A stretch of 64,000 bases of DNA from Xanthomonas sp. CFBP 8443 (GTDB lineage Bacteria; Pseudomonadota; Gammaproteobacteria; Xanthomonadales; Xanthomonadaceae): contig NZ_CP102592.1 of the NCBI RefSeq assembly GCF_025666195.1, forward strand, positions 3,410,001-3,474,000, in the 5' to 3' direction. Within the stretch, counting starts at the first letter, position 1. Every line of letters starts with the position of its first letter. The translations under genes and the position numbers were made by a program. The notes under the pieces are model-generated. The model was not told the origin of the DNA and searched no databases. It was given only the letters and a program-made list of their open reading frames with translations. Shown here in pieces: positions 1-18,493 of the stretch.

Positions 1-14
1 CGGCTGAAGCCGCT
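1..14. repeat. Left part of a REP palindrome split by IS110
   Basis: The window opens with CGGCTGAAGCCGCT, the right arm of the REP repeat found intact at 24751-24819 and 61879-61948. The rest of that arm, CCTACAA, appears at 1167-1173 directly after the IS110 element. Joining the two pieces restores GAAGCCGCTCCTACAA, so the element interrupts one REP arm. The left REP arm would lie before base 1 and cannot be seen. Confidence 0.85.
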
Positions 15-48
15 TGTGTCTTACGCAGGTCTATCGTTGAGGTGAGAG

Positions 49-193
49 CGGAGTGCGGCAGGCCGCTAAGTCGCAGTGCCTCACGAGCACGAGTAGGAGT
101 CAGGGCCGCCGCACTCCGTTTCTCCTGCCAGCAAGCCCGAACAGTTGCCTGAGCCGCGAGCTCGAACCTACAAGCATGGGCATCGGCAGGAGA
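49..193 (+). ncRNA. Candidate bridge RNA of the first IS110 element
   Basis: Two stem-bounded loops lie between the left end and the recombinase. The first is closed by an 11-bp perfect stem (49-59 with 108-118) and capped by GTGC/GCAC (76-79, 87-90). It holds GCCGCT (62-67), identical to the left target plus core (9-14), and GTAGGAG (93-99), complementary to core plus right target CTCCTAC (1165-1171). The second is closed by a 9-bp stem (121-129 with 185-193) and capped by GAGC/GCTC (151-154, 160-163). It holds ACAGTTGCCT (141-150), matching the right end ACAGTTGACT (1157-1166) at 9 of 10 bases, and ACAAG (170-174), complementary to core plus left end CTTGT (13-17). This is the order of target and donor guides in IS621 bridge RNA. 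Transcript ends are not determined. Confidence 0.8.
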
Positions 194-227
194 TCTCTCG
201 TCCCTGAGTTTACTGCGGAGAACGCCT

Positions 228-1157
228 ATGTCTATGCAGCGCTTTGTCGGGATCGATGTCTCCAAGGCCGAGCTGGTCGTTCACGTCTTGCCGGATGGGC
301 TGACCTGGACTCAGGCCAATACGCCCGAGGGGCACGCCGGCCTGGCCGAACGCCTGGCCTTGCTGGGATGCGAGCGGATCGTGCTGGAGGCCAGCGGTGG
401 CTACGAACGGGCGATAGTGCAGGTGCTGACGCAGGCTGGTCTGCCCGCGGTCCGGCTGCCTGCCCAGCGTCCTCGTGCGCTGGCGCACGCGTTGGGACTC
501 AAGGCCAAGACCGATGCTCTGGATGCGCGGTTGCTGGCTGTGGCGGCCCAGTGCATCCACGCTCAGCCCACCGCGGTGCTCCCTGCGCCGCTGCAGGCGC
601 TGCGCGAACTGCTCCACCTGCGCAGCACCCTGGTCGCCCAGCGCGATGCGCAGCGCCGCTGCATGGAGCACGTGACCTGCAAGGCGGTGCGCGACCAATG
701 GCTCGAGGTGATCGCGCTGCTGCAGCAGCGCATCTGTAACGTGTCCCGGCAGATCGCACAGGCGGGGGCTGCCTGCTCCAGCCTGCCCAAATTGCCTGGG
801 CTTGGCCCGATCCTGCGCGCCACCCTGGCAGCCCGGCTCCCCGAGCTGGGCACCGTGCATCCGCGCAAGATCATCGCCTTGGTCGGGCTGGCGCCGTTCA
901 ATCGCGATAGCGGCCGCTGGCGCGGCCAACGCCGCATCCAGGGCGGACGCGCCGACGTGCGACGAGTGCTGTACATGGCCACGTGGGCCTCCATCCGCAC
1001 CGGCTCCCCGCTGTCACACACCTACGCCCGCCTGACCGCCGCAGGCAAACCCGCCAAGGTCGCCATTGTCGCGTGCATGCACAAGTACCTGCGATGGCTC
1101 AATGCCATTGCCCGAGACCAGGCGCCTTACGCTCCTCCGGAGATCGCTTCTGCATGA
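228..1157 (+). CDS. IS110-family recombinase (transposase)
   Basis: This 309-residue serine/DEDD recombinase catalyses excision and insertion of the surrounding element. The N-terminal RuvC-like half opens with VGIDVSK, followed by the acidic positions of LEASGG and KTDALDAR. The C-terminal half is a Transposase_20 domain beginning LPGLGPILRATLAARLPELG, with the conserved serine in NRDSGRWRGQRR. Length is normal for IS110 (about 300-350), so the protein looks intact. In this family the enzyme works with an RNA encoded just upstream; a matching structure is present at 49-193. The first ATG (228) is used; a second lies two codons later. It differs in sequence from the other IS110 recombinase at 17459, so the two are separate lineages rather than copies. 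Confidence 0.93.
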   Translation: MSMQRFVGIDVSKAELVVHVLPDGLTWTQANTPEGHAGLAERLALLGCERIVLEASGGYERAIVQVLTQAGLPAVRLPAQRPRALAHALGLKAKTDALDARLLAVAAQCIHAQPTAVLPAPLQALRELLHLRSTLVAQRDAQRRCMEHVTCKAVRDQWLEVIALLQQRICNVSRQIAQAGAACSSLPKLPGLGPILRATLAARLPELGTVHPRKIIALVGLAPFNRDSGRWRGQRRIQGGRADVRRVLYMATWASIRTGSPLSHTYARLTAAGKPAKVAIVACMHKYLRWLNAIARDQAPYAPPEIASA

Positions 1158-1216
1158 CAGTTGACTCCTACAAGGGATTCGCTCGTCCGTAACCAGCGCC
1201 CCAGCTTCCTTGGCCG

Positions 1217-17150: not shown

Positions 17151-17216
17151 TTGTAGGAGCGGCTTCAGCCGCGACAGGCTCTATCGGTAATGCCTGTCGC
17201 GGCTGAAGCCGCTCCT
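17151..17216. repeat. REP palindrome interrupted by the second IS110
   Basis: An inverted pair: TGTAGGAGCGGCTTCAGCC at 17152, about 25 bp, then its complement ending GGCTGAAGCCGCTCCT at 17216. The missing tail ACAG follows the IS element at 18448-18451. The uninterrupted repeat would form a long hairpin like that at 24751-24819. Confidence 0.9.
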
Positions 17217-17270
17217 TGTATCTGGACATGGCGCCCCTGAAGGCGTTATGTCTTCCGACTGATCATCGGA

Positions 17271-17414
17271 GGAGGTGCGGGAAGTCCAGTCGCTCCTGAA
17301 GCTTCGAGCTTGTGCTGTAGATCGGCTCCCGCCCTCCATCTGCTGGCCCTGCGGTGTCCGCACGGTATCCAGAGTCCGCCGCTGGCGTGAACTCGCATCC
17401 ACAAGGCAGGACCG
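17271..17414 (+). ncRNA. Candidate bridge RNA of the second IS110 element
   Basis: The leader repeats the two-loop layout of the first element. Loop one is closed by GGAGG-U-GCGGGA (17271-17282) with TCCCGC-CCTCC (17327-17337) and capped by AAGC/GCTT (17299-17302, 17308-17311). It holds CGCTCCT (17291-17297), identical to left target plus core (17210-17216), and CTGTAG (17315-17320), complementary to core plus right target CTACAG (18446-18451). Loop two has a cap GAGT-CGCC/GGCG-ACTC (17372-17394). It holds ACGGTATC (17362-17369), identical to the right end before and into the core (18439-18446), and ACAAG (17401-17405), complementary to core plus left end CTTGT (17215-17219). The outer stem of loop two is weaker here. 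RNA ends are unknown. Confidence 0.75.
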
Positions 17415-17458
17415 GGCGCAGCGATGATCGTGATCACCCATCCGATGGAGGAGTCCTT

Positions 17459-18430
17459 ATGTCCCCAGTCGTCGGCATTGACGTCGCCAAGCGCAGTTTC
17501 GACCTGGCCATCGACCTGGCCAATGGCAAATACCGCACCAAGGCCAAGCTTCCCAACGATCCGAAGGGCTTCCAGGCCTTGCACGCGTGGCTGCAGACGC
17601 ACGCGCAGGCGGACAGCTGGATCGTGATGGAAGCCACCGGCACCTACCACGAGGCGCTGGCCGAGTTCGTGCATGGGTTGGGCTACCGCGTGTGCGTACT
17701 CAACCCAGCACAGATGGCGCTGTATGCACGCAGCCAGCTGACCCGGGTCAAGACCGACCGCAGCGATGCCAAGCTGATCGCCAGCTACGGCCAGCGCCAT
17801 GCGGCGCAGCTGCGGCCCTGGCAACCCGACCCGCCGGCGCTCAAGCAGCTCAAGGCGCTGGTGCGGCGCCGGGACGACCTGCTGCAGATGCTGCAGATGG
17901 AGCGCAACCGCCTGGACGTCGCGGCGCGCGTGGTGCGCGACTCGATCCTGGAGAGCATCGACCACCTGCAGGCACGCATCGCGCAGATCGAACGGGCCAT
18001 TGAGGACCATATCGACCAGGACCCGACCTTGCGCGGGCAGCGCGACCTGCTGGTGAGCATCGATGGGATCGCCGACACCAGCGCGGCGTTGATGCTGGCC
18101 GAGCTTGGCAATGTGGAGCGCTTCGCCCACGCCTCGGCGGTGACCGCCTTTGCCGGGCTCAACCCCCGGCTGCAGGAGTCCGGCAAGCGCCAGGGCCAGG
18201 TCTGCATCTCCCGCACCGGCTCCCCGCGCCTGCGTGCGGGCCTGTACATGCCGGCCCTGGTCGCCATGACCCACAATCCGGTCGTCCGTGCGCTGAAGCA
18301 GCGCCTGCGCGAACGCGGCAAAGCCGGCAAGCAAATCGTCTGCGCCGCCATGCGCAAGTTGCTGCATCTTGCCTACGGCGTCCTCAAATCAAACACGCCA
18401 TTCGATCCTCAAAAGGCCATTGCCTGTTAG
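17459..18430 (+). CDS. IS110-family recombinase (transposase)
   Basis: A 323-residue IS110 recombinase. The N-terminal RuvC-like domain starts SPVVGIDVAKRSFDLAID, with acidic residues in VMEATGTY and KTDRSDAKLIA. A coiled-coil spacer runs from residue 125 to 190. The C-terminal Transposase_20 domain begins SIDGIADTSAALMLAELGN and has the conserved serine in LQESGKRQGQV, then SRTGSPRLRAGLYMPAL. The start at 17459 follows a good GGAGGAG ribosome binding site (17447-17453). The protein looks full-length. It is only distantly related to the recombinase at 228. Confidence 0.93.
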   Translation: MSPVVGIDVAKRSFDLAIDLANGKYRTKAKLPNDPKGFQALHAWLQTHAQADSWIVMEATGTYHEALAEFVHGLGYRVCVLNPAQMALYARSQLTRVKTDRSDAKLIASYGQRHAAQLRPWQPDPPALKQLKALVRRRDDLLQMLQMERNRLDVAARVVRDSILESIDHLQARIAQIERAIEDHIDQDPTLRGQRDLLVSIDGIADTSAALMLAELGNVERFAHASAVTAFAGLNPRLQESGKRQGQVCISRTGSPRLRAGLYMPALVAMTHNPVVRALKQRLRERGKAGKQIVCAAMRKLLHLAYGVLKSNTPFDPQKAIAC

Positions 18431-18493
18431 ACGGGAAGACGGTATCTACAGGTCAATCGCAATCGCGCACCTCTCCCGCACAGCTGTATCCCC

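Follow-up and report, generated by a model that had tools for sequence, protein, structure and literature searches.

A probable REP-targeted bridge-RNA IS110 element in Xanthomonas and a match to the sX15 small RNA family on its antisense strand

The IS110 element and its REP site

The window analysed here is a stretch of 64,000 nucleotides from Xanthomonas sp. CFBP 8443 (contig NZ_CP102592.1, positions 3,410,001 to 3,474,000). It begins within a REP, and this REP is occupied by an IS110 element. The features discussed below are as follows, with guides, stems and promoter-like sites given as predicted:

1-14, plus strand: left half of the occupied REP, CGGCTGAAGCCGCT
6-14, plus strand: left target (LT), GAAGCCGCT
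13-1166, plus strand: IS110 element, bounded by CT cores at 13-14 and 1165-1166; five identical copies
32-37, plus strand: -10-like TATCGT of the circle promoter, with -35 TTGACT at 1161-1166 and spacer 15-31 (17 bases)
36-202, minus strand: match over the full length of the Rfam model sX15 (RF02234), on the strand opposite the bridge RNA; 45.8 bits at E 1.1e-6
44-199, plus strand: approximate extent of the bridge RNA, its ends placed from the promoter and the outer stem; outer stem 44-48/195-199 closes both loops
49-118, plus strand: target loop, stem 49-59/108-118, extended by 61-64 with 103-107
67-75, plus strand: left target guide (LTG), UAAGUCGCA, in its corrected place; 68-74 pairs with the left target, U71 standing opposite G (wobble) or A (Watson-Crick)
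76-79/87-90 and 151-154/160-163, plus strand: cap hairpins, read from the letters
93-99, plus strand: right target guide (RTG), GUAGGAG, complement of CTCCTAC at 1165-1171
121-193, plus strand: donor loop, stem 121-129/185-193, inner stem 136-139/177-180
141-150, plus strand: left donor guide (LDG), ACAGUUGCCU (DNA letters ACAGTTGCCT), 9 of 10 letters against the right end ACAGTTGACT (1157-1166)
170-174, plus strand: right donor guide (RDG), ACAAG, a sequence match to the left end CTTGT (13-17)
207-234, minus strand: promoter-like site on the antisense strand, TAGACA-16-TAAACT; its -35 (234-229) overlies the start of the transposase gene (tnp), and its -10 is at 212-207
228-1157, plus strand: IS110 recombinase, 309 amino acids
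1165-1172, plus strand: right half of the occupied REP, CTCCTACA
17215-18447: second IS110 element, in the same REP with its CT core three bases further on (AAGCCGCTC-CT-ACA)

The host genome holds five copies of the first element, which are identical over 11-1172 and share a common REP junction. The left flank reads AAGCCGCT in four of the five and AAGTCGCT in one, and the right flank is CTCCTACA. The intact REP, GCGGCTGAAGCCGCTCCTACA, has 324 exact occurrences in this genome. The boundaries at 13-1166 with their CT cores, proposed in an initial annotation made from the letters alone, are confirmed by these copies, and none of the five carries the same leader into an unrelated target.

The 309-amino-acid recombinase contains the Pfam domains DEDD_Tnp_IS110 (62.9 bits, cut-off 29) and Transposase_20 (58.2 bits, cut-off 21.3) and aligns with the ISCro4 and IS621 recombinases of the structure bank. 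Residues D10, E54, D96, D99 and S228 (our count) align with identical ISCro4 letters and make up the DEDD and serine active site; the numbering of the IS621 active site follows PMC11208158.

When the right and left ends of the element are joined, they read TTGACT-17-TATCGT, and the core forms the last letters of the -35 hexamer; an inserted copy has GCCGCT at the -35 place instead. TAnnnT at a spacer of 17 is present in 24 of the 29 relatives described below. A sigma-70-like promoter rebuilt across joined ends has been reported for IS621 (PMC11208160). Judged by its letters, the excised circle of the window element would likewise form such a promoter, broken in the inserted copy.

The predicted bridge RNA and its guides

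The initial annotation had read the leader as two loops closed by perfect stems, each with a small hairpin cap. Both stems are indeed perfect, with predicted pair probabilities of 0.98-1.0 for 49-59/108-118 and 0.86-1.0 for 121-129/185-193, and the two caps can be read from the letters. The folding z was -3.0 for the plus strand and -4.7 for the minus strand; because the minus strand folds at the better z, stable folding alone cannot pick the strand. The free-RNA model pairs several guide bases, and forcing all four guides open (with the LTG as initially annotated) costs 13.8 kcal/mol, from -76.5 to -62.7.

A transposase match was found in 74 of 297 genomes of the family. Relatives comprised 29 elements with both ends defined, at 38.8-100% identity to the window element in the best tblastn segment. 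Five IS110 copies of one genome (G239, L099-L103) were dropped for stretches at their ends that read N. The leader alignment (A1) holds 24 of the 29; left out were L073, L094 and L114, which have a different architecture, and the near duplicates L078 and L108. Elements L094-L098, L073 and L114 have the right end ACGGTTACT, and their copies have CTCAG at the right and variable left targets; the leader of this type is without the outer stem and the antisense -10. In genome G019, nine matches to the window transposase are listed, and those shown are partial, as if the element were decaying.

The 24 aligned leaders share 30 consensus pairs, 16 of them with changes on both sides, and 97.5% of cells are paired, against 32-54% in slid versions. 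Four of five stem measures were reached by 0 of 500 shuffles, and the fifth, further pair types, by 61 of 500. The two-sided changes lie mostly in the target-loop stem, where 11 of 14 consensus pairs show them, and the donor and outer stems are mostly invariant across the aligned leaders. The outer stem has the same five GAGAG/CUCUC pairs in every leader, so covariation is no test of that stem. G-U cells compared with A-C cells number 57 vs 9 in the plus-strand fold and 33 vs 1 in the minus-strand fold; each fold's count favours its own strand, so only the energies separate the strands, with a consensus fold of -43.5 kcal/mol for plus and -38.2 kcal/mol for minus.

Taken in order over window 36-202, the four guide arms match 28 of 35 letters, whereas dinucleotide shuffles give 22.5 +/- 1.2 and reach 28 in 1 of 5000 cases; this test used the best LTG anywhere and lends the initially annotated LTG no particular support. 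By right target, the 29 relatives divide into CTCCT (17), CTGAR, which is attC-like (7), CTCAG (3), CTACT (1) and CTCCA (1), and class matrices were made with one representative per target class, that is, 5 of the 29 elements. Counted from the core, the RTGs of the five classes match their own targets at 7, 5, 7, 7 and 7 of 7 letters, and of 120 assignments the true one is best. The register scan also put the annotated RTG first, at the register that ends at 97 ahead of the core, and the placement at 93-99 stands. When all elements are taken together, RTG scores against other classes have a mean of 4.0 yet reach 8, because CTGAA and CTGAG were taken as separate classes. Exceptions are the attC-type L075, L078 and L111, which differ from their target at one base, and L114, which matches three non-core letters. 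For the LTG identity matrix, the true assignment was the best of 120 by one letter (33 vs 32), and in the CTCAG class (row T4) another class fits better than the own target.

On the donor side, the LDG was found where it had been annotated. It switches with the right end, reading ACGGTTA where the right end has ACGGTTA and ACAGTTG elsewhere, which amounts to one switch only; the scan gives its place (ending at 147) the top own score, while the top own-minus-other lies elsewhere. For the RDG, ACAAG does match CTTGT in place as the initial annotation had it, a short match whose own-end scores lead in neither the class matrix nor the register scan, by own score or by difference. As far as these alignments go, covariation is strong for the RTG and the LTG and consists of one switch for the LDG. 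Of the four guides that had been described as visible, three lie where they were placed, and the LTG has to be moved.

The LTG had been read as GCCGCT at 62-67, including the CT core, with the rest of the map as given here. These letters match the left target of the window copy exactly over six positions, and with one column of slack this register is equalled by 160 of 20000 permutations over all classes. Yet the family consensus pairs 61-64 with 103-107, and both sides largely change together, so that the proposed guide overlaps, through 62-64, a covarying stem. Held fixed, the 62-67 register is equalled by 14937 of 20000 permutations among the 24 leaders, and among the 17 REP-class leaders by 11270 (fixed) and 9418 (slack); its own score of 3.73 compares with 3.65 against other elements' targets, a difference of 0.08. 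The scan for the left target arm instead has its top register at 67-73, with the core at 74-75 (own score 4.15, next 3.88; own minus other 0.86, and 0.85 for the runner-up, a register ending at 102). For 67-75, permutations that ignore relatedness, as do those above, were as good in 1 of 20000 cases at fixed register and 0 of 20000 with one column of slack among the 24 leaders, and in 26 and 16 of 20000, respectively, among the 17 REP-class leaders. The last LTG base, A75, mismatches the core T. In IS621 the order is stem, three-base linker, nine-base LTG and cap (PMC11208158), and this order fits the window leader, with the linker at 65-67 and the LTG at 67/68-75. For L022, of a second REP-targeting type, we had considered mismatches between LTG and core; the corrected register leaves only the last base mismatched.

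Side observations on other relatives concern the same guide. At one LTG position L065 has a different letter from L067 (G or C), and the same difference is seen in their left targets (GGCGCT, GCCGCT). Seven related IS110 elements of Lysobacteraceae (L072, L075, L077, L078, L104, L108 and L111) stand in attC-like sites, TAACGCCT or TAACACCT followed by CTGARTTA, and at the variable base, G or A, the LTG of each agrees with the target.

A natural comparison is offered by base 71, which would have no effect on REP choice if the LTG lay at 62-67. The REPs come as a C-type and a T-type; the variants CTGAAGCCGC and the rare CTGAAGTCGC number 331 and 20 in the host genome and 212 and 7 in genome G003. 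Because U pairs with A or G, U71 can read both REP types. Elements with U71 occupy T-type (AAGTCGC) REPs in 6 of 13 cases (G000 1/5, G003 5/6, G015 0/1, G016 0/1), a signal that comes mostly from the one genome G003, and elements with C71 do so in 0 of 40 among the matches listed (Fisher p = 7e-5). Comparing occupied with free sites, p was 1e-6 in G003 and 0.26 in G000. C71 copies (0 of 35), set against their own T-type background (15 of 693), are no more absent from T-type sites than expected (p = 1.0). The comparison covered every copy in G003 (six) and in G000 (five), 14 of the 16 sX15 matches of G008, and seven each among the matches listed for G010 and G011 (at most seven scored per genome). 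The site preference agrees with an LTG predicted at 67-75, and we consider the 62-67 map, for all its exact match to the window copy, highly improbable.

Another explanation would dispense with guides: the leader could be a structured 5' untranslated region that controls translation of the transposase, with the protein or the REP hairpin choosing the site. REPs are palindromes, and the tnp leader of ISPpu9 is reported to hide the ribosome-binding site (PMC8450116). However, the guides follow the target over five classes, including targets other than the window REP, and among close relatives preference goes with one leader base. We regard this explanation, too, as very unlikely. The window element is thus very probably a complete insertion sequence of the IS110 group that uses a bridge RNA, is targeted to REPs and has its LTG at 67-75. 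It is an addition to the bridge-RNA IS110 elements, a known group, and the annotation of an RNA-guided, REP-directed IS110 element with IS621-like guide order in a xanthomonad is supported. Its bridge-RNA code would be legible from sequence to the point that one guide could be moved and a site preference tied to one base (U or C at 71).

By analogy with IS621, the circle promoter would transcribe a bridge RNA of about 44-200. Its target loop would pair with both REP strands through the LTG at 67-75 and the RTG at 93-99, and its donor loop with the joined element ends through the LDG at 141-150 and the RDG at 170-174. The DEDD/serine recombinase, for which RNA binding and strand exchange are presumed from the work on IS621, would then exchange strands at the CT core, giving insertion between AAGYCGCT and CTCCTACA.

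The second IS110 element of the window is distantly related to the first and has seven genomic loci, one with a shorter open frame. In its leader, the left target is matched by GTCGCTCCT (17289-17297), the right target by TGTAG (17316-17320) and the right end by ACGGTATCC (17362-17370). In order, its arms match 26 of 31 letters, and 1 of 2000 shuffles is as good; the RDG was not recovered in a best-match test of the leader. The element has U at the equivalent LTG base, but a T preference is not supported by its loci, all seven of which lie in C-type REPs. It obeys bridge logic at a shifted core, so that each of the two elements reads the repeat at a core of its own.

A match to an Rfam small RNA family opposite the predicted bridge RNA

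The sX15 match covers nearly the same letters as the bridge RNA, on the minus strand. Its score lies below the gathering score of 55, and at that score the whole window has no sX15 match. Of 20 genomes of the genus, 11 give a match at E 0.001, two of them above the gathering score; at the class level, sX15 matched 2 of 369 genomes, the host genome among them. An IS110 N-terminal motif stands directly behind the sX15 locus, on the opposite strand, in 28 of 30 cases. One of the two exceptions (L030) was missed by the motif search and has a tnp found by other searches; the other (L029) is without a clear tnp. Among 12 further relatives, 11 match at E 0.001 and eight are above the gathering score, all of them antisense to tnp; relatives' scores range from 43 to 167 bits, and the other strand gives two weak matches (E 0.16 and 0.87).

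We take sX15 to be one of the 24 sRNAs of X. euvesicatoria strain 85-10. Plasmid pXCV183 of this strain carries an sX15-type leader whose minus strand scores 150.9 bits, against a weak 24.8 bits for the other strand. The leader (L123:1526-1684, minus strand), similar to leaders in eight other Xanthomonas plasmid records, lies near a type III effector gene and has no annotated IS110 transposase beside it. The letters behind it resemble an IS110 start, MNGIGIDVCKA (our reading), and tblastn of this locus with a relative's transposase gave no match at E 1e-3; the leader may be an IS110 remnant. The 24 sRNAs of strain 85-10 were found by dRNA-seq (PMC3771888).

Just upstream of the sX15 match stands the antisense promoter-like site TAGACA-16-TAAACT, the sole sigma-70-like site in window 1-400 (0.0 expected). 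Bases 1, 2 and 6 of its -10 (T, A and T; window 212, 211 and 207) are invariant in 24 of 24 aligned leaders and are the only invariant columns behind the outer stem. In our reading of the listing, TAnnnT occurs at this place in 26 of the 29 leaders, and the remaining three, L073, L094 and L114, are without the region. A close relative on a plasmid of X. sacchari (L137) has the antisense -10 in the same place. Twelve plasmid loci were examined out of 40 listed among 1546 records; of the 11 others, all distant IS110 loci, seven are without TAnnnT in the scanned part and four have it elsewhere, with a -35 of at most 3/6. We therefore discarded the idea that the antisense -10 is general to IS110, as distant elements do not share its place.

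By position, sX15 lies opposite the predicted bridge RNAs in one clade of IS110 elements, with a conserved promoter-like site ahead of it. It is conceivable, at somewhat less than an even chance, that sX15 is a natural anti-bridge RNA, made from a conserved internal promoter in one IS110 clade and complementary to all four guides. Against this, Rfam may have the family on the wrong strand, or there may be a plus-strand RNA only and no antisense RNA in these elements. The plus-strand consensus fold has the better energy, and the good antisense -35 is that of the window element, the conservation count across leaders covering the -10. Against that reading stand the promoter-like site on the minus strand, with its three invariant key -10 bases, and the precedent of ISPpu9, where an antisense sRNA was mapped whose promoter lies at the start of tnp (PMC8450116). 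We consider a wrong strand or a plus-strand RNA only to be rather unlikely. In the literature searched, whose coverage took in the smaller part of subscription papers, no link of sX15, RF02234 or Asr9 (the antisense sRNA of ISPpu9) to a bridge RNA was found.

If sX15 is indeed an anti-bridge RNA, the inserted state would have its circle promoter broken and its antisense promoter whole. The antisense RNA would then meet stray bridge RNA or read-through tnp mRNA, and circle formation would tip the balance. Alternatively, as has been proposed for Asr9, it might make the tnp leader accessible to translation. In both cases it would amount to a built-in control of RNA-guided recombination, and a catalogued sRNA family of plant pathogens opposite bridge RNAs would make on/off control of bridge-RNA systems testable in laboratory strains.

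Comparison with known systems

The window element resembles the seekRNA elements ISPa11 and ISKpn4 of the IS1111 group in an RNA-guided choice of a REP or attC and in a DEDD transposase (PMC11187229). In those elements, however, the seekRNA lies downstream of tnp, and the order of target matches is reversed. The window guide RNA is upstream of tnp and in IS110 order, which sets the element apart from the IS1111 group and its downstream RNA.

ISPpu9 of Pseudomonas putida belongs to the IS110/IS492 family and, like the window element, targets REPs. Its antisense sRNA, Asr9, was mapped, with a promoter at the start of tnp, and is reported to raise tnp translation and transposition (PMC8450116). 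Both systems have an antisense element, a putative one in the window, complementary to the tnp leader, with a promoter or promoter-like site at the tnp start and ribosome-binding site. Asr9 was mapped and tested, whereas the putative antisense element of the window is known by a promoter-like site and an Rfam match, and the two are likened by description. The Rfam family itself, sX15 (RF02234), an sRNA of Xanthomonadaceae, matches the window leader over its full length on the strand opposite tnp.

The closest comparison in layout is with IS621 (PMC11208160, PMC11208158). The window element has another REP and other guides, and its RTG has seven letters, compared with four in IS621 (longer ones are reported in orthologues). 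Both loops lie within an outer stem here, whereas IS621 is described with a 5' stem-loop; the last LTG base of the window element mismatches the core, and an antisense promoter-like site is present. Like IS621, the window element has its predicted RNA in the left end, with the target loop followed by the donor loop and the guides in the order LTG-RTG and LDG-RDG, a CT core, a REP target, a promoter-like sequence rebuilt across the joined ends and a recombinase of the DEDD and serine type.
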